Part shown: one piece after another, positions 1,607-12,373 of the stretch | Layout of the letters: every line of letters begins with the position of its first letter | How positions within the stretch are numbered: the stretch's first letter is position 1 | Assembly: GCF_014192015.1 (NCBI RefSeq) | Contig: NZ_JACHXJ010000001.1 | Span: 1,116,001-1,180,000 of the forward strand | Source: Paenibacillus rhizosphaerae | GTDB taxonomy: Bacteria > Bacillota > Bacilli > Paenibacillales > Paenibacillaceae | DNA: 64,000 bases | Direction: 5' to 3' | Position numbers and translations under genes: made by a program | The notes under the pieces: model-generated | Told to the model about the DNA's origin: nothing | Databases searched by the model: none | What the model saw: the letters and a program-made list of their open reading frames with translations, nothing else

Positions 1607-1642
1607 AAAAAAACAAGCCCGGTCTTTATGGCCAAAGAGGGC
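1607..1642 (-). terminator. Expression-platform terminator of the preQ1 riboswitch
   Basis: On the minus strand a hairpin with arms GCCCTCTTT and AAAGACCGGGC is followed by TTGTTTTTTT. It lies directly after the preQ1 aptamer and about 95 bases before queC, the placement expected for ligand-controlled transcription termination. Confidence 0.82.
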
Positions 1643-1645
1643 AGT

Positions 1646-1680
1646 CTTAGTTTTTTATAGAGGGAGTTCGCGAACCTCTC
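1646..1680 (-). promoter_or_regulatory. preQ1 class I riboswitch aptamer
   Basis: Read on the minus strand the element runs GAGAGGTTCGCGAACTCC then CTCTATAAAAAACTAAG. The AGAGGTTC start, the CCCTCTATAAAAAACTA core and the A-rich tail that folds back as an H-type pseudoknot match the compact preQ1-I consensus upstream of Bacillus queC. It lies in the queC leader, so sequence and context agree. Binding of preQ1 is expected to favour the terminator just downstream. Confidence 0.92.
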
Positions 1681-1735
1681 CCGCGCGGAAACGCGCGGAT
1701 TTTCTTCAATTGAGCGCAGAGTGCTGCGCCGCACT

Positions 1736-5161: not shown

Positions 5162-5857
5162 ATGATCAGATTGTATATGCTTGCGATCAAGAACGTTTCT
5201 GCCGCGCAATTCGATCATTTTATGAAACGGGTCTCTCCCGAACGAATCAGACAAGTACGACGAATCAGAAACAGGAGGGATGCTGTAAGAAGCCTGTTTG
5301 GCGAAGTCATGGTGCGCTGGGGGGTGAGCCAGGTAAAGCCCGCTGCCGCTTTTTCCAAGCCATGGATGCGCAGCGAATTCGGCAAACCGGTCTTTGCGGA
5401 CGAACCGGACATTCATTTTAATCTTTCCCATTCCGGAGATTGGGTGGTAGCCGCCATCGGCCCGTCTGAACTCGGAGTGGATGTCGAGCAGGTGCTCCCT
5501 GTGAACCCGGGAATTGCTGAATCATGTTTTTCACCCGCTGAACTCGGGCTGCTTCAATGCTTGCCGGAAGAAGAGCGGCTGGGCCGGTTTTATGACATTT
5601 GGACGCTCAAAGAAAGCTATACCAAGTGCATCGGTAAAGGATTAAGTCAGCCGCTGGACTCATTTACGATCACGATTTGCCGGGACGGCAAGATAGAGTA
5701 CAGCGGCCCTGAAGAGGAAGCACGCAATTATCAGTTTATGCTGATCCCTGTGGAAGGACCATATAAACTCGCGGTCTGTACAAAAGCAAGGAGGCCGATC
5801 GAAATATATGAACCGGAAATGGATCAACTTTTAGGCATGGAGATGTTTTCAGGTTAA
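5162..5857 (+). CDS. 4'-phosphopantetheinyl transferase, Sfp type
   Basis: A 231-residue enzyme that moves the phosphopantetheine arm of CoA onto carrier-protein serines. The signature pieces are present: IHFNLSHSGDWVVAA, then GVDVEQV with the Mg-binding acidic residues, and the WTLKESYTKCIGKGL motif. An AGGAGG lies six bases before the ATG at 5162; an upstream in-frame GTG at 5144 lies before that site and is unlikely. It sits just ahead of the NRPS-reductase operon, whose carrier domain needs this modification, so functional partnership is likely although transcription is separate. Confidence 0.92.
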   Translation: MIRLYMLAIKNVSAAQFDHFMKRVSPERIRQVRRIRNRRDAVRSLFGEVMVRWGVSQVKPAAAFSKPWMRSEFGKPVFADEPDIHFNLSHSGDWVVAAIGPSELGVDVEQVLPVNPGIAESCFSPAELGLLQCLPEEERLGRFYDIWTLKESYTKCIGKGLSQPLDSFTITICRDGKIEYSGPEEEARNYQFMLIPVEGPYKLAVCTKARRPIEIYEPEMDQLLGMEMFSG

Positions 5858-5911: not shown

Positions 5912-5940
5912 TTGAATATTTTATAGTTACTAATTATTAA
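5912..5940 (+). promoter_or_regulatory. Candidate promoter for the c-di-GMP leader
   Basis: TTGAAT, 17 bases, TATTAA. Spacing is ideal and each box matches consensus at four of six positions. It would start transcripts about 20 bases before the aptamer. Confidence 0.45.
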
Positions 5941-5964
5941 TTAGTTTCTATAAAAGCGTAATTG

Positions 5965-6060
5965 AAAATTCCATAGGCAAAACTGCTGAAAAGCAGTGAC
6001 GCAAAGCTATAGGGACTACTTCCGAACCGGGATATGTCAGCCAGTTGCAAATGAATTGGT
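5965..6060 (+). promoter_or_regulatory. Cyclic-di-GMP class I (GEMM-I) riboswitch
   Basis: The core reads CCATAGGCAAAACTGCTGAA then AAGCAGTGACGCAAAGC, followed by TATAGGGACTA and, after a variable arm, ATGTCAGCCAGTTGC. CTGCT-GAAA-AGCAG is the conserved GNRA-capped stem, GACGCAAAGC is the invariant junction, and CAGCC-AGTTGC is the conserved 3' side. The closing stem P1 can form between AATTCCAT..GCAA and TTGC..ATG..AATT. It leads straight into a chemotaxis receptor, a usual kind of c-di-GMP-controlled gene. Confidence 0.93.
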
Positions 6061-6062
6061 GA

Positions 6063-6098
6063 GCTGTGGTTTGCATTCCCATAGGTTGCTATTTTTTT
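6063..6098 (+). terminator. Candidate expression-platform terminator of the c-di-GMP riboswitch
   Basis: AGC-TGTGG pairs with CCATA-(GGTT)-GCT, then ATTTTTTT. The stem is bulged and modest. The 3' strand of aptamer stem P1 lies just upstream and could be drawn into alternative pairings, so the ON or OFF sense is not readable by eye. Confidence 0.45.
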
Positions 6099-6231
6099 GC
6101 CCTGAACATGCTGTTTTCTGCCGTGGGGAGGTGTTATTCGAGAAAAGCCAAGACCGTTTCTAGTATGGCCGGGTGGATAGGCGCCTGGAAGATTACATAA
6201 CAGAGAGACAGACCAAAGGAGAGTAACGAGA

Positions 6232-8004
6232 ATGAGCAAGTTTCAGCAATTTACCAAGAAATGGCGGTTTAAAAATTTAAGTATTGTAAGCAGAAGTATG
6301 ATGCTGACCAGTCTTTATATTTTCATCACCGGGGCGGTCGTGATTGGGGCAAGCTTTTATATTCAGGGCACCGTCCTGACCGAGCAGCTGCAGTCGGATT
6401 CCGGTAAAACGATGGATGCCCTGGTGAAGAGCGTATCGGTACAAGACGTTGAGCAGGCGAAGGATGTAAAGGATCCCAACGCCGCTGTCCAGCAAAAGCT
6501 CACGGGTATTTTTGACGAGCTGTCCCGTACGCATCCGAATATTGCCCAAGGGTATATTTTCGGGCCTGAGCTTGAAGGGGGTAATCAAACCTCGATTATT
6601 TCGATGCCGACGGCTGTGCTGGAAATGTTCGACAAAGATAATTTGCATCTGGGCGACCTGTACGAGCAGCCTAAAATTCATGCCGACGCCGTCCGCGAAA
6701 TGCTGAAAACGAAAAAGCTGGTGTTTACCAAAGCCTATACAGATAACTATGGTACTTGGATAACGGTCCTGTATCCGTTCCAGGATGCAGGCGGCAATAT
6801 CTTCGCCTATATGGGCATCGACGTGGATGCCAGCCTGGTCTCCGCCGGGCAAAATGATCTGCTTCGCAACACGCTGTTTGCGCTGCTGTTAACGCTGGTT
6901 ATCGTACTGGCGCTGCAGTATTACACGAACAGACGGACCTTTGCCCCGATCAAAACGCTGATGACGGCGCTGGACAAGCTCAGCAAGGGGGATTTTACCG
7001 TACAGCTGAAGGCCGGCGACGATGAGCTTGGGCAGGTTAACGCCAAATTCAACACGATGGTGAACCAAATCAACGAGCTGGTAGGGACGATTAAAAAAGT
7101 ATCGGAGCAGTCCGCAGAGCAATCGAAGTTCCTGTTCTCGGCTGTGGAGAACAATAACAAAAATTCGTCGGCCATTACGAAAAATATAGAACAGATGTCC
7201 GAGCGGGTTGCATTGCAGAGCACGTCCATCACGGAGAGCGTCGTTTCGCTGGAGGAGATTTCGTCTGGCGTCAACACGATTGCCGGCAATACCTCCGAGC
7301 TGTCAGACATTTCGATGCAGATGAAGGATCAGTCGGAAAAAGGAAATGAGAACGTTGAGCAGGTCATCAAGCAGATGAATTCAATCAACCACTCGGTTAA
7401 AAATTCCGTGGACATTATTGAGAAGCTGCAGGTCCGTTCCCAGGAAATCGGCCAAATTGTCCAGGTCATTACGGAGATCGCTTCCCAGACGAATCTGCTG
7501 TCCTTGAACGCGAGTATCGAGGCGGCCCGGGCCGGCGAGGAAGGCCGGGGATTTGCTGTGGTAGCCGATGAGGTCAAAAAATTGTCCGAAGAGTCCAGAA
7601 AATCCGCCACGCAAATTATCGAGCTGATCCGCTTCATTCAGGATGAGACCGCACTGGCCGTCGAGGCCATCAGCGAAGGTGAGCAGAACGTCGCCAAAGG
7701 GATTGAGGTCGTCAAGGAAACCGGCTCCCTGTTTAGAGGCATGATGATCGCGACCGATTCGGTCACGAGCCAAATTCAGGAGGTGTCTGCAGCGACGCAG
7801 CAAATGGTAGCCGAAACCGAGCAAATTACGGCTTCCATCAAACAACTTGCGGAGCTGGCGGAGAAAAACTCGGCCGTATCCAGCGAGATCAAGACGAGCG
7901 CCCAGGAGCAGCAGGCTTCCTTTGACAGAATTTATGATTCCGCCAATCAGATGAACCAGGTGGCTGACCAATTGGAAACCTTAGTTGACAAATTGCGGGT
8001 GTAA
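6232..8004 (+). CDS. Methyl-accepting chemotaxis protein
   Basis: A 590-residue membrane receptor. Two membrane helices (about residues 22-45 and 209-229) frame an external Cache-like ligand domain of about 160 residues. A HAMP segment follows (about 228-285), then a long coiled-coil signalling domain. The kinase-contact tip ITEIASQTNLLSLNASIEAA with ARAGEEGRGFAVVADEV lies near residues 412-448. The gene is led by a c-di-GMP-I riboswitch, so its level should follow c-di-GMP. Its stop is two bases before the NRPS gene, implying co-transcription. The ligand is unknown. Confidence 0.94.
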   Translation: MSKFQQFTKKWRFKNLSIVSRSMMLTSLYIFITGAVVIGASFYIQGTVLTEQLQSDSGKTMDALVKSVSVQDVEQAKDVKDPNAAVQQKLTGIFDELSRTHPNIAQGYIFGPELEGGNQTSIISMPTAVLEMFDKDNLHLGDLYEQPKIHADAVREMLKTKKLVFTKAYTDNYGTWITVLYPFQDAGGNIFAYMGIDVDASLVSAGQNDLLRNTLFALLLTLVIVLALQYYTNRRTFAPIKTLMTALDKLSKGDFTVQLKAGDDELGQVNAKFNTMVNQINELVGTIKKVSEQSAEQSKFLFSAVENNNKNSSAITKNIEQMSERVALQSTSITESVVSLEEISSGVNTIAGNTSELSDISMQMKDQSEKGNENVEQVIKQMNSINHSVKNSVDIIEKLQVRSQEIGQIVQVITEIASQTNLLSLNASIEAARAGEEGRGFAVVADEVKKLSEESRKSATQIIELIRFIQDETALAVEAISEGEQNVAKGIEVVKETGSLFRGMMIATDSVTSQIQEVSAATQQMVAETEQITASIKQLAELAEKNSAVSSEIKTSAQEQQASFDRIYDSANQMNQVADQLETLVDKLRV

Positions 8005-8006
8005 TC

Positions 8007-11000
8007 ATGAAGGAGCTGAACATTTTGAACACAACATCGATAAGCGAGCGCAGCAAGGCATACTGGTCCCAAGAACTCGAGCTTCCTCTGCCCGGACTCA
8101 ACCTGTACACAGATGAGCCGGTACGTGAATTTCAGCCCGATATGCTGCGGATCACGGAAACGCTGGATGTGGGACCGGAAGAGGCTGCTGAACTGAGCCG
8201 GCTGGGCAACCCCCGTGTCTGGTGGCTGGCTAGTTACGCGGTGTTTCTGTACAGGATGAGCGCCGATCAGGATTTGCTGTTTGGCGTGGTGAACCGGCAA
8301 GGAGTACTGCTGCCGCTTCGCGCAGCGATCAGCGGACAGGATACGTTCCGGCAGGTCTATGCGCGGATCGAAGCCAAGCTGGAGGCGTTGGACGCTGCGG
8401 ACCTGAGTCTGCAGGAGCTTGAAGAAATGATCGGCCAGCCGCTTGGCTTTCATGCGGTGTACGGCGAAGCTCATGCGAGCCGTCCATCATGGCTGGGCTG
8501 GGATGTTCAGGCAGCATCCGGGGGCTGGACTCTGAGCATCGCCTATGCCCGCCAACTCTTCAGGGAACAGACCGTTCGCAAATTCAGCAGGCATTACGTT
8601 CAAATCGTTCGCGGTGCGCTGCAGAACGCGGATCTGGAAATCAGCCGCCTGCCTTTCCTGCTGGAGGAGGACCGCGCCGCCTATACGGCTTTGAATGACA
8701 CGCAGATGGACCTTCCGGATGAGCCGACGATCGTCCGGATGATGGCTTCCACCGTAGCGAAGTATCCGGACCGGATTGCCGTCACCCAAGATGGGAAGAA
8801 GCTGACCTACGAGCAGCTTGACCGGCAGTCCAACCGGATCGCGAACATGCTGCTGTCCAAAGGGCTGCAAAAAGGGCAGTTCGTGCCTATTTTCATGAAA
8901 CGGAGTCTAGAAACGATTGTTTGCATGCTCGGCGTCATTAAGGCAGGCGGGGCTTACATTCCGCTGGATCCTTCCCATCCGGACGAAAGAAACGCCTATA
9001 TTATCGCCGACACGCAGACCGGGATGATTCTGACGCAAGCTGAATATGTGAACCGTCTGGAAACGCTGCTTGCCGGTTTTGACAGGAAGCCGGAAATTCT
9101 CCCATTGGGAGAACAGGCGGATTCCCATCCGGAAGAAGCATGTCCGGTTGATATTGAGCCGGATGATCTGGCTTATATCATTTATACGTCCGGCTCCACG
9201 GGCAAGCCGAAGGGAGCCCTGATCGCACATCAAGGCGTCGTCAATTTGGCGGAGTCCACGCGCAGGGAGATGGATCTGACCGAGGAGGACGTGATCCTTC
9301 AGTACTCCACCTTTAGCTTTGACGCGTCGGTCTATGACATTTTCGGCTCGCTGGCCTGCGGCAGCCGGCTCCATCTGCTCACGGATGAAGAGCGGTTTTC
9401 CATCGATGCCTTTACCGCGGCGGTGGTGGAGCAGCGGGCGACGCGCGTCGCCATTCTGCCGACCGTTTTCTTCAACCAGCTTGCCGCACATTTGCCTGAA
9501 GAGGATGCGCCCAAATACGGGAACATCCAGAGCATCATCGTCGGTGGCGAGGCGCTGTCGGGCGAAGCCGTACGCATGCTGCAGAAAAAGCTGCAGGTTC
9601 CGGTCGTCAATCTTTACGGTCCGACCGAAATTACGGCGGTGGCGACCTCCCATATCGTCGATTATCCGGTTCCGGAGGATCTGACGACGGTGTACATCGG
9701 AACGCCGCTCAGCAATTACGAATTGTACATTGTCAGCGAGCATGACCAGCTGTGCCCGATCGGAGTCACCGGCGAACTCCTGATCAGCTCCGTCGGCGTG
9801 GGCAAGGGGTATTTGAACCAGCCTGAAAAAACGAAGGAAGCCTTCATTACCGATCCGATTACGCCGGAGTCCGGCAAGAAATTTTACCGTTCGGGCGATA
9901 TGGTCCGCCTTCTTCCGGACGGATTGGTAGAGTACCGGGGGAGAAAGGATGCTCAGGTGAAGATCCGGGGTTTCCGGATCGAAATCGGGGAGATCGAGGA
10001 CAATCTGGCAAAGTATGAGTCCGTCAAGGACATCGCCGTCATTCCAAGAACCGAAGCGGACGGAACCAAGATCCTCGCCGCCTTTTATACGTCAAATGAC
10101 GGGCGGCCGGTTCCTTCCAAGGACCTCACCCAATTTTTAAGCCAAAAGGTGCCCGGCTACATGGTTCCCAAATATATGTGCTTCGTGGATCAAATGCCGC
10201 TGTCACCGACAGGGAAGATCGACCGCAAAAAGCTGGCCGCATTTGAAATCGTGCCGGAAGAGGATGATTCGCCGTATGAAGCCCCGGTCACGGCCATTCA
10301 GAAGGAAGTGGCAGCCGCCTGGGAGAAAGCGCTTGGCCAGACGAGAATCGGCATCCACGACGATTTCTTTGAAATCGGCGGCTACTCCCTGAAAATTTTG
10401 GAGATCCTGGTGCTGCTCAAGCCGAACTATCCGCAGCTGAAGATCAACGATTTCTTCGTGTACCCGACAATTGCCGCATTGGCAAGCCGGATCGAAGTGC
10501 TGGCCCATTCAGCGGCCGCAGCGGAGGAGGTATTCGGTGAGGATGTTCCGCTGCAGGATTTGGCGGAGTTTCCGCTGAGCTTTTATCCCCAGGATCATGC
10601 CGAAGGAAGGGGATACACGCAGGAGAACATTTTGCTGACCGGCGCGACCGGCTACCTCGGATCTCACCTGCTGTACGAGCTGCTTCGCCAATCGAAAGCT
10701 TCGATTTATTGCCTTGTTCGACCATCCGGGGAGCGGGAGCCTTACGCTCGGCTGGAACAGACGATGATCGGATACTTTGGGAATGAAATGAAGCGTCTGA
10801 TGGACGGTCGGGTCATCGCTGTGCAGGGCGATCTGGAGCAGGAGCATTTGGGGATGAACCGGGAAGTTTGGGACATGCTGGCAGATCGCCTGGACTCCAT
10901 CCTCCATTGCGGTGCGGAAGTCAAGCATTTCGGAGAAGCGGACTATTTTGCCAGGGTCAATGTGGACAGCACGAATCGACTGCTGGCATTAGCCAAGTCC

Positions 11001-11732
11001 AAACCGGGCGTTCGGTTCCATTTTATCTCGACGCTCGGCATTCCGGAAGATTTGGCGCTAAACGGCCAATGGGCATCAATCACGGCCGGTTCCGGTTATG
11101 ACGAAGCATATGTCGAAAACGTCTATACCAACAGCAAGCTTGCTGCCGAGAAGCTCGTCGTGCAAGCCGGCCGGGAAGGCCTGGAAGCTTCCGTATATCG
11201 AGTAGGCAATTTGTCTTGCAGGTCGGATAACGGCTTATTCCAGAAAAACATCGACAACAATGCGTTTTACCGCATGCTTAAGGCAATGCTGCTGCTGAAG
11301 AAGGCGCCGGATGTGTGCTGGGAAGTCGATATGACGCCGATTAATTACGCAGGAGAAGCAATTACCGCCTTGGCGCTCCAGGACGCGACCGTCGGACGGA
11401 TGTTTCATATCTGCAACCCGGCCACGGTGGCTTATCGGGACATGGTGCGGTTTTTCCAGGCATACGGGTATACGATCGACCTGACGGATTGGAAGGAATA
11501 CGAGCAGTGGCTGCTCGATCCGAAGCAGGCCAAGGACCAGACGGGGCTGGAGCTGGCTATGGCGCAGCTGGAGGGGGACGGAGCAAAAAACTCCAATTAC
11601 CGCTACGCATGCCCGCAGACACTCGAGTATCTTGAGGGGACTGGGGTCCAGTGTGCGCAGCCGGATGAGGCTTATTTCCGCAAGCTGATCGCTCATGCCA
11701 TCAAGGTAGAGTATTTTACGCGGCCCGAATAG
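8007..11732 (+). CDS. Single-module NRPS with terminal thioester reductase (partial C - A - PCP - R)
   Basis: A 1241-residue enzyme predicted to activate an amino acid, load it on its carrier domain and release it reductively as an aldehyde or alcohol. Residues 15-220 resemble only the second half of a condensation domain (YWSQELE start) with no HHxxxDG motif. The adenylation domain has YIIYTSGSTGKPKGA near 390, NLYGPTEITA near 535, YRSGDMVR near 627 and SPTGKIDRKKL near 733. The carrier motif DDFFEIGGYSLKILE (Ser about 794) follows. The reductase begins ILLTGATGYLGSHLL near 875 and has YTNSK near 1040. A TTG at 8025 with AAGGAG nine bases before it may be the real start. It is co-transcribed with the MCP. 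Confidence 0.92.
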   Translation: MKELNILNTTSISERSKAYWSQELELPLPGLNLYTDEPVREFQPDMLRITETLDVGPEEAAELSRLGNPRVWWLASYAVFLYRMSADQDLLFGVVNRQGVLLPLRAAISGQDTFRQVYARIEAKLEALDAADLSLQELEEMIGQPLGFHAVYGEAHASRPSWLGWDVQAASGGWTLSIAYARQLFREQTVRKFSRHYVQIVRGALQNADLEISRLPFLLEEDRAAYTALNDTQMDLPDEPTIVRMMASTVAKYPDRIAVTQDGKKLTYEQLDRQSNRIANMLLSKGLQKGQFVPIFMKRSLETIVCMLGVIKAGGAYIPLDPSHPDERNAYIIADTQTGMILTQAEYVNRLETLLAGFDRKPEILPLGEQADSHPEEACPVDIEPDDLAYIIYTSGSTGKPKGALIAHQGVVNLAESTRREMDLTEEDVILQYSTFSFDASVYDIFGSLACGSRLHLLTDEERFSIDAFTAAVVEQRATRVAILPTVFFNQLAAHLPEEDAPKYGNIQSIIVGGEALSGEAVRMLQKKLQVPVVNLYGPTEITAVATSHIVDYPVPEDLTTVYIGTPLSNYELYIVSEHDQLCPIGVTGELLISSVGVGKGYLNQPEKTKEAFITDPITPESGKKFYRSGDMVRLLPDGLVEYRGRKDAQVKIRGFRIEIGEIEDNLAKYESVKDIAVIPRTEADGTKILAAFYTSNDGRPVPSKDLTQFLSQKVPGYMVPKYMCFVDQMPLSPTGKIDRKKLAAFEIVPEEDDSPYEAPVTAIQKEVAAAWEKALGQTRIGIHDDFFEIGGYSLKILEILVLLKPNYPQLKINDFFVYPTIAALASRIEVLAHSAAAAEEVFGEDVPLQDLAEFPLSFYPQDHAEGRGYTQENILLTGATGYLGSHLLYELLRQSKASIYCLVRPSGEREPYARLEQTMIGYFGNEMKRLMDGRVIAVQGDLEQEHLGMNREVWDMLADRLDSILHCGAEVKHFGEADYFARVNVDSTNRLLALAKSKPGVRFHFISTLGIPEDLALNGQWASITAGSGYDEAYVENVYTNSKLAAEKLVVQAGREGLEASVYRVGNLSCRSDNGLFQKNIDNNAFYRMLKAMLLLKKAPDVCWEVDMTPINYAGEAITALALQDATVGRMFHICNPATVAYRDMVRFFQAYGYTIDLTDWKEYEQWLLDPKQAKDQTGLELAMAQLEGDGAKNSNYRYACPQTLEYLEGTGVQCAQPDEAYFRKLIAHAIKVEYFTRPE

Positions 11733-12195
11733 TCATTACGTGGTGCGTTGACAAACCTCTCGGGGGAGAGAATGATATCATCCGACATATCCTGGGGCTG
11801 CACTGCGGCAAGCGGGATGGTCGTGTACCGGACAAGGAAAGAAAAAGGTTAGAACCGTGTTAGAAAAAGACAGAAACGGACGAGAGCGAATAAAAGAGCC
11901 GGAGCCGTGAGGAGCTCGAGTTTCGCAAGGCAGGGTGGGCAGAGTATTGCGAAATCTGCGAACCGCAGGACATCGCAGACAAATGCGGGAACTCGTATCA
12001 TATAGCGTTACAATCCATTCACCAGCAGTATAACAGCAATACACCAGCAATACACCAGCAATACACCAGCAATAGCCAGCCTTAGCATGACCAAAAGCAT
12101 GACCGGGTCCGCGGAAATGATGATACGCAATCACGGCAGGACGTTAGCTATACAACGAACTCGGCATTATTAATAGTACAGAAACAGAAAGACAG
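11733..12195. other. Purine-rich gene-poor stretch after the NRPS gene
   Basis: No convincing gene on either strand. A consensus -35 TTGACA at 11748-11753 is followed by a CTCTC-GGGG-GAGAG inverted repeat (11757-11770), but no good -10 follows. The rest is low in coding signal and includes the short tandem repeat at 12034. Open frames here on the minus strand have no ribosome site and are distorted by the repeat. Confidence 0.4.
12034..12076. repeat. 11-bp tandem repeat, about 3.8 copies
   Basis: CAGCAATACAC is repeated in tandem starting at 12034, 12045, 12056 and 12067, the last copy diverging after CAGCAATA. A degenerate copy (ACCAGCAGTATAA) precedes it. It lies in non-coding DNA. Confidence 0.85.
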
Positions 12196-12330
12196 ATGAG
12201 GAAAAACAAACTGCGGAACATAGCAATACTAATGGGATTTGCGGAACTTAGCGGGCTCTTACGGCAAACAATATATCCAGCAATATTAGCATTCCTGATC
12301 CTACCATTCATCCTAATCAAAGTTTGCTGA
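12196..12330 (+). CDS. Possible small hydrophobic peptide (44 aa)
   Basis: An ATG-initiated frame of 44 residues: a basic start (MRKNKLRN), then a strongly hydrophobic end (ILAFLILPFILIKVC) that could form one membrane helix. It ends eight bases before a strong terminator, which otherwise has no gene to end for 600 bases. Against it: no clear ribosome site, and ATA, CTA and TTA codons that its neighbours avoid. I do not recognise a family. Confidence 0.25.
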   Translation: MRKNKLRNIAILMGFAELSGLLRQTIYPAILAFLILPFILIKVC

Positions 12331-12337
12331 ATTTTGA

Positions 12338-12373
12338 AATCGAACGACATGATGCCGTTCGATTTTTTTTTTT
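12338..12373 (+). terminator. Strong intrinsic terminator
   Basis: AAATCGAACG and CGTTCGAT form an 8-bp perfect stem followed by a run of ten or more T. It may end the NRPS operon or the small peptide at 12196. Confidence 0.8.

Follow-up and report, generated by a model that had tools for sequence, protein, structure and literature searches.

A GEMM-I riboswitch leader, a chemoreceptor gene and a one-module NRPS gene in tandem in Paenibacillus rhizosphaerae and its relatives

The locus

The window analyzed here is a 64,000-nt stretch of Paenibacillus rhizosphaerae DNA (contig NZ_JACHXJ010000001.1, positions 1,116,001 to 1,180,000), in which an aptamer of the cyclic di-GMP (c-di-GMP)-I, or GEMM-I, riboswitch class precedes the gene for a methyl-accepting chemotaxis protein (MCP) and, in tandem with it, the gene for a nonribosomal peptide synthetase (NRPS)-like enzyme that ends in a reductase (Table 1). 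A sequence-only reading of the stretch had placed the aptamer at 5965-6060, and an Rfam covariance scan of the window found RF01051 at that place with a score that passes the family threshold. It is the sole RF01051 match found in the 7.55 Mb genome, for which 150 of 583 first-look candidates were scored; the same genome holds ten GGDEF matches. Domain searches likewise bore out two further parts of that reading, an Sfp-type 4'-phosphopantetheinyl transferase (PPTase) just upstream, which carries ACPS and AASDHPPT_N domains, and a single-module NRPS ending in a reductase, for which adenylation (A), thiolation (T) and thioester-reductase (R) domains were found.

The two-base gap that had been read between the MCP and NRPS genes needs correction. 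The same TTG start and Shine-Dalgarno site recur in the junctions of several relatives, so TTG 8025, which follows AAGGAG (8010-8015), is the probable start of the NRPS, and the gap is then likely 20 nt, not 2. Such a gap is too short for any terminator. A probable operon terminator lies beyond the NRPS gene, and the two closest relatives, as judged by eye, also have a hairpin with a U-run in the corresponding position. The MCP has a single extracellular, putatively Cache-like sensor (approximately residues 45-205) followed by a HAMP and a signaling domain, both of which score above their cut-offs (HAMP, 36.9 versus 25 bits; MCPsignal, 151.5 versus 34.6 bits).

Table 1. Features of the locus, in window coordinates
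Feature	Position	Strand	Evidence or remark
Sfp/AcpT-type PPTase, separate gene	5162-5857	+	Pfam ACPS 1.9e-18, AASDHPPT_N 7.3e-10
c-di-GMP-I (GEMM-I) aptamer	5966-6052	+	RF01051, 72.5 bits vs gathering score 35, E 2.8e-12
Predicted antiterminator: aptamer strand GCUAUAGGG pairing with terminator 5' arm	6006-6014	+	5.2 expected base pairs
Terminator-like element between aptamer and MCP	6057-6098	+	hairpin 6057-6091, U-run 6092-6098; -12.0 kcal/mol
MCP, 590 aa	6232-8004	+	Pfam HAMP 4.7e-9, MCPsignal 2.6e-44
Single-module NRPS-like enzyme, half-C–A–T–R	8025-11732	+	TTG start; in-frame ATG 8007 also possible
C-lobe of condensation (C) domain, without N-lobe	8028-8741	+	profile and fold match
NRPS A domain	8751-10217	+	domain match
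NRPS T domain	10305-10493	+	domain match
NRPS R domain	10626-11693	+	domain match
Probable operon terminator	12336-12366	+	fold -16.6 kcal/mol, z -4.4, 0/200 shuffles as good

Conservation of the receptor–NRPS pair

One hundred genomes of the same genus were searched with a 409-aa reductase query at E 1e-20 and with the MCP sensor at E 1e-5. Reductase matches occurred in 38 of them, 13 at 62% identity or more and the others at 37% or less, and sensor matches occurred in 30, 13 at 54% or more and the others at 36% or less. The same 13 genomes hold both orthologues, and the two genes are adjacent in every one, spaced by -1 to 96 nt when measured from the start codons chosen. A sensor-profile scan gave 35 named loci, 29 of which have an NRPS directly downstream of the MCP; it is missing there in the other six, whose sensors are at 32% identity or less. 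Together, the 13 genus loci and the 29 named ones, with seven common to both, make a set of 35 distinct pair loci. The MCP and NRPS trees look alike when compared by eye. One record titled Neobacillus mesonae MER 107 (L114, JAMBOW010000001.1) falls inside a Paenibacillus clade in both trees and is probably mislabelled.

In the wider family, the reductase was found at E 1e-80 in 140 of 394 Paenibacillaceae genomes, spread over 11 of 19 genera, and an MCP sensor match lies adjacent to it on the same strand, 3.7-4.5 kb away, in 134 of these 140. Absence of the pair from related genomes, which the sequence-only reading had named as grounds against it, is thus not what is found. The other six genomes were inspected directly. 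In one the pair is present with the MCP below the cut-off (G255), in another the MCP is interrupted and the NRPS open (G215), and in a third both genes are frameshifted (G167). The last three (G161, G141 and G138) have no MCP beside the reductase and no sensor match among the matches listed. The NRPS frame of G161 is open, but its A-domain aspartate is replaced by G and its reductase tyrosine by C, and G141 and G138 have lost the A and T regions; all three reductase hits that lack a receptor gene have therefore lost key NRPS residues or domains. In G164, which was listed with a receptor and no reductase match, the pair is cut by a contig end. Comparison of the window with its two closest relatives (Nei-Gojobori script) gave a dN/dS of about 0.05 for the MCP and about 0.10-0.11 for the NRPS, so that both genes are under purifying selection.

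Beyond the family, 398 Bacilli genomes were searched with the sensor profile at E 1e-15. It matched in 55, of which 33 lie outside Paenibacillaceae, and the best 19 of these 33 loci were examined within the 4-8.5 kb fetched. The MCP is followed by the NRPS in eight of the 19, and five of these eight (families f2, f30, f34 and f7; one of the five, L309, is the same record as L121) have a PPTase gene directly downstream as well as GEMM-I before the MCP, so the order GEMM-I–receptor–NRPS–PPTase recurs in other Bacilli families. At three more loci, all from one genus of family f37, the NRPS lies directly upstream of the MCP, and a terminator-like hairpin stands between the genes, by eye, in the two loci whose gap was inspected. 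In these three genomes the NRPS is 35-36% identical over nearly its whole length and is the best match in an NRPS-rich genome; its A-domain motif differs, and a simple pattern found no carrier motif in it.

These counts bear on the reading that the two genes are chance neighbors, or that enzyme and receptor are joined only by shared horizontal transfer. In its favor, the flanks do differ between groups, and one copy (L105) sits on a record titled plasmid. Against this stands the adjacency in 134 of 140 family hits, which led us to reject chance adjacency. Both genes are, moreover, under purifying selection, and three further genomes of one genus place an NRPS of related build next to this receptor with the gene order reversed; the reading is extremely improbable. 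Collectively, these results show that the receptor–NRPS pair is genuine, occurs widely and is subject to purifying selection.

The upstream PPTase probably arms the carrier domain of the NRPS. Its upstream place is confined, among the 13 genus loci, to the window and its two closest relatives, and a PPTase match lies directly downstream of the NRPS in L112, L121, L125, L128 and L310-L313. The place shifts between groups, and we accordingly rejected the PPTase as a fixed upstream member of the operon. In L271 and L275, the loci of the truncated G141 and G138 genes, a GEMM-I leader stands directly before an open 647-aa half-C plus reductase frame, which represents either a decayed operon or a new enzyme.

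The leader and its distribution

GEMM-I is present in 22 of the 35 pair loci. An alignment of 19 of these 22 aptamers supports the fold by covariation, with 97.7% of cells paired and seven pairs showing double changes, compared to four at most in slid versions of the alignment. At the position that we take to be equivalent to Vc2 G20, the window aptamer has a G, as do 17 of the 18 other aligned aptamers, which hints, and only hints, at c-di-GMP as the ligand. The aptamer of L094 (10517-10601, minus strand; identical to L107, P. dendrobii) is alone among the 19 in having an A there, presumably the mark of cGAMP-type variants. Recognition of 3',3'-cyclic GMP-AMP (cGAMP) instead of c-di-GMP would fit this relative, and GEMM-I includes cGAMP-binding variants. 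We regard such a ligand as highly improbable for the window, given its G, that of nearly all the other aptamers, and the description of the Vc2-20 position in PMC9262584 as a selectivity factor, not a hard filter.

Between the aptamer and the MCP gene lies a hairpin that abuts a U-run, which had not been mentioned in the sequence-only reading and was not listed by a generic terminator scan that permits loops of 3-8 only. Such an element is present in all 22 GEMM leaders of the set (21 by script, L109 by hand). Taken together, the observed folds were reached by 17 of 1320 shuffles. Singly, at most 3 of 60 shuffles match the hairpin in 20 of the 22 leaders, and the window, at 4 of 60, is one of the two exceptions; the fold of 6035-6110 has a z of -1.75, with 14 of 200 shuffles equally good. 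In every one of the 22 leaders the hairpin starts beyond the paired core of the aptamer, so aptamer and terminator can coexist, as in the OFF switch Cd1.

Pairing of the terminator's 5' arm with the aptamer was computed on transcripts cut before the 3' arm of the hairpin, for the 22 leaders including the window. In the window, the arm pairs with aptamer strand GCUAUAGGG with an expectation (Table 1) that compares with 0.5 pairs for shuffled arms, and none of 40 shuffles was as good. Over all 22 leaders the mean was 4.1 expected pairs, again compared to 0.5 for shuffled arms, and the pairing was at or below 5% of shuffles in 15. This predicted pairing argues for an OFF switch, under which high c-di-GMP would lower both proteins. 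In layout, the present leaders are predicted to resemble Cd1 of C. difficile, an OFF switch in which, according to PMC9262584, terminator and aptamer can be folded at once. They share its aptamer class and would share a downstream terminator able to coexist with the folded aptamer and, in the 15 leaders just mentioned, a predicted antiterminator that unfolds the aptamer; unlike Cd1, the leaders here precede a receptor–NRPS pair, the antiterminator of the window would consist of GCUAUAGGG and the terminator 5' arm, and their OFF behavior is a prediction.

The riboswitch does not accompany the pair everywhere. Within a 32-member core clade, GEMM-I appears by eye to have been lost in a clade of seven (the lautus/solani group) and in a clade of three (L115, L118 and L120). 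Across Paenibacillaceae it was found before 25 of the 134 pairs, namely 6 of the 13 in the genus (Rfam), 19 of 120 others scored with our own model, R1, and 0 of 1 (L278), and c-di-GMP as a universal control of the pair was rejected on this count. The sequence-only reading had proposed that one signal sets both the level of the receptor and the synthesis of the NRPS product; it holds in so far as one leader precedes a conserved pair, and fails as a general rule for this riboswitch. A scan of 20 leaders for other Rfam elements at E 0.01 (18 without GEMM-I, plus L248 and L255, already known to carry it) returned a single tRNA among the 18. The riboswitch is real but lineage-specific, and it is the pair, not c-di-GMP control, that is the conserved part. 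At one locus outside the core set (L310), two GEMM-I aptamers lie on opposite strands within 0.75 kb, one (8019-8109, plus strand) before an MCP–NRPS–PPTase set and the other (7378-7464, minus strand) facing away, as if a divergent gene were c-di-GMP controlled too.

A sigma-D-like promoter is present in two related lineages that lack GEMM-I; in one lineage it is strong, in the second it is weaker. Leaders were scored against what we take to be the sigma-D consensus, TAAA-N15-GCCGATAT-like, with the genome's own hag promoter as a control: TAAA-N15-GTCGATAT precedes its flagellin gene by about 120 nt. In six of the seven lautus-group loci, TAAA-N15-GCCGAT(T/C)T occurs at -294 to -321 with a score of 11.5, reached by 0.3% of 700 shuffles, and the seventh has a weaker sigma-D-like form at the same place. 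The GEMM-carrying loci of the TCA20 type also have a sigma-D-like site, its -35 part approximately 95 nt upstream of the aptamer, and this site lines up with that in the GEMM-less clade of three. These sites are weaker singly, three scoring 10.5 (3.4% of shuffles) and the rest 9.5-10 (8-26%). Riboswitch and sigma-D-like promoter would both likely confine expression to motile cells low in c-di-GMP.

Enzyme, sensor and a proposed role of the pair

The enzyme combines A, T and thioester-reductase domains with an incomplete C domain and has the key motifs in place, the build of a monomodular A–T–R (ATR) enzyme. By profile, its first 240 residues correspond to the later part of solved NRPS C domains, the condensation model being matched over its last 56 positions only, and a structural model of this region (pLDDT 85.5) matches C domains with a query TM of 0.67-0.80 among the best 50 matches listed. 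The absent N-lobe is the part that would bear HHxxxDG. The remaining C-lobe evolves faster than the A domain and is absent in at least two distant members (L133 and L268). The window NRPS retains the carrier motif IGGYSLKIL and, in the reductase, the NAD(P) motif TGATGYLG and YTNSK. All 44 sequences inspected retain the carrier serine and the NAD(P) motif of the reductase, and 43 of them, all but G161, also retain the A-domain aspartate and the reductase Y-x3-K; the truncated genes of G141 and G138 did not belong to this set.

With motif positions taken from GrsA-PheA, we read the A-domain code of the window as DAYIIGLAVK, which suggests a hydrophobic or aromatic residue; no firm substrate was assigned from it. 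Five of the distant members inspected read DAWITAVVCK or DAWITAVVAK, which resemble Phe-type codes.

By domain build, as opposed to sequence comparison, the closest likeness is to PvfC of Pseudomonas and AsaC of Aspergillus, each of which likewise consists of a single A–T–R module and lacks a full C domain; unlike these, the present enzyme is partnered by a chemoreceptor. According to PMC10512218, both of these enzymes build pyrazinones out of two residues, and PMC10194917 reports that pvf makes autoinducers and is linked to reduced swarming. No PvfB-type N-oxygenase was found among the four flanking proteins scanned (the PPTase, a MerR protein, a MocA-type oxidoreductase and a TIM-barrel isomerase), so the locus does not have the PvfB and PvfA/PvfD neighborhood of a pvf cluster. 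The best NCBIfam matches of the NRPS and the PPTase are AusA and AusB of the Staphylococcus aureusimine system, with which reductase release is shared, but their scores are well short of the family cut-offs (NRPS, 594 of 2500 bits; PPTase, 77 of 225 bits), and AusA is dimodular whereas the enzyme here has one module.

The sensor region of the MCP gave no Pfam match and no convincing sequence relative in the PDB. Its structural model (pLDDT 90) retrieved Cache/PAS-type sensor domains with Foldseek, at E values down to 3.4e-7 and a moderate query TM of 0.23-0.61 among the best 50 matches listed. The putative likeness in sensor fold extends to Tlp3 and to the sensor kinases KinD, WalK and DcuS, from which the present protein is set apart by its tandem arrangement with an NRPS and its lack of a convincing sequence relative in the PDB; its sensor is joined to HAMP and MCP signaling domains. 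The matches include Campylobacter Tlp3 domains in complex with Leu, Ile or Val, which is compatible with an amino acid, or a product of one, as the ligand. In genus g5 of family f1, many genomes have a second match to the same sensor type elsewhere, at approximately 38-42% identity.

Taken together, these features make it reasonably probable that the locus is a two-gene 'motile-phase' unit, in which a GEMM-I attenuator stands ahead of MCP and NRPS. Transcription would start upstream and run through the attenuator into both genes. When c-di-GMP is low, the 5' arm of the terminator would pair with GCUAUAGGG and allow read-through; when it is high, the aptamer would hold, the terminator would form and both genes would be off. 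The MCP would display its Cache-type sensor outside the cell, and the NRPS would load one hydrophobic amino acid and release it reductively; if the analogy with PvfC and AsaC applies, two such residues would combine into a pyrazinone or (dihydro)pyrazine able to diffuse. Receptor and small molecule would then serve the same behavior of motile cells.

Several results weigh against this account. GEMM-I was not found before 109 of the 134 family pairs, and the window leader has no sigma-D-like site above background (best score 8.5, reached by 88% of shuffles). No NRPS was found at 8 of the 19 receptor loci examined outside the family (one of them covered for 1.7 kb only), and within it G171 (L274) has an open MCP frame with a GEMM-I leader and no NRPS, which speaks against strict dependence. 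The fold of the whole window leader is unremarkable (z -1.1, 30 of 200 shuffles equally good), and in seven leaders (L102, L109, L113, L114, L116, L119 and L124) the antiterminator pairing is not beyond shuffles. Moreover, in 17 of 22 leaders the ligand-free, full-length equilibrium fold tips toward the terminator (0.80 for the window); for an OFF switch to work, the antiterminator would have to be trapped while transcription is under way.

This last preference counts in favor of an ON switch, in which c-di-GMP binding prevents termination and the operon is of use to cells attached to a surface. As we read the sequence, the 5' side of the terminator could face competition from a weak P1 that lies outside the aptamer core, and GEMM-class ON switches exist: pilM, according to PMC9262584, is one in which aptamer and terminator are mutually exclusive. 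However, the hairpin begins outside the paired core in every leader, which permits coexistence as in Cd1, the pairing test favors an aptamer-breaking antiterminator in 15 of the 22, and two related lineages have a sigma-D-like site instead; an ON switch is thus unlikely.

What the receptor senses can be read in two ways. We consider it rather doubtful, if attractive, that cells 'make and follow' a cue of their own, the NRPS making a diffusible pyrazin(on)e-type compound, the co-transcribed MCP being its dedicated chemoreceptor and rising c-di-GMP shutting off both. Motile cells would then move relative to the signal of their own kin, and the clade-specific A-domain codes (DAY.. in the window clade, DAWITAVV.. 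in distant members) would be strain-group dialects with matched sensors. A tentative alternative, short of an even chance in our judgment, is that the receptor senses the amino acid consumed by the NRPS or an unrelated nutrient, so that enzyme and receptor share the occasion of motility and not a ligand. The amino acids bound in the Tlp3 matches favor it, as does the occurrence of receptors of this family without an NRPS, but it accounts less readily for a pair that stays adjacent across 11 of 19 family genera and several other families, and for receptor loss accompanying NRPS damage in three cases. It is compatible with the regulatory half of the unit proposed above.

Searches of the open-licence literature aimed at the receptor–NRPS pair or its product listed no paper describing the pair, the available parts examined including those of PMC9262584, PMC8835794 and PMC6878767, and no known product in Paenibacillus was found there either, in keeping with the sequence-only reading, which knew of no described system with such a pairing. 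It is rare for a chemoreceptor to offer a clue to what it binds, and one locked to a single small biosynthetic enzyme across many Bacilli offers a direct and cheap route to deorphanising it, and to a new diffusible cue that cells may both make and sense. If the product is the ligand, a single transcript would tie self-made chemotactic signals under c-di-GMP control to cell–cell signaling, chemotaxis and the motile–sessile switch. Otherwise, the finding that related species place a riboswitch, a sigma-D-like promoter or the two together ahead of this operon is still a natural experiment in regulatory evolution.

Two minor features of the window complete the description. Between the NRPS gene and the probable operon terminator, approximately 600 nt (11733-12335) hold no convincing gene and are by eye very different in close relatives; this gene-poor stretch contains an 11-bp tandem repeat (CACCAGCAATA) in five copies (12020-12074). 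Near the start of the window, an ordinary PreQ1 riboswitch (1641-1684, minus strand, 47.2 bits) lies upstream of what is, by eye, a queuosine-pathway-like gene set, comprising a 6-pyruvoyl-tetrahydropterin-synthase-like gene (363-848) and a QueC-like gene (845-1513).

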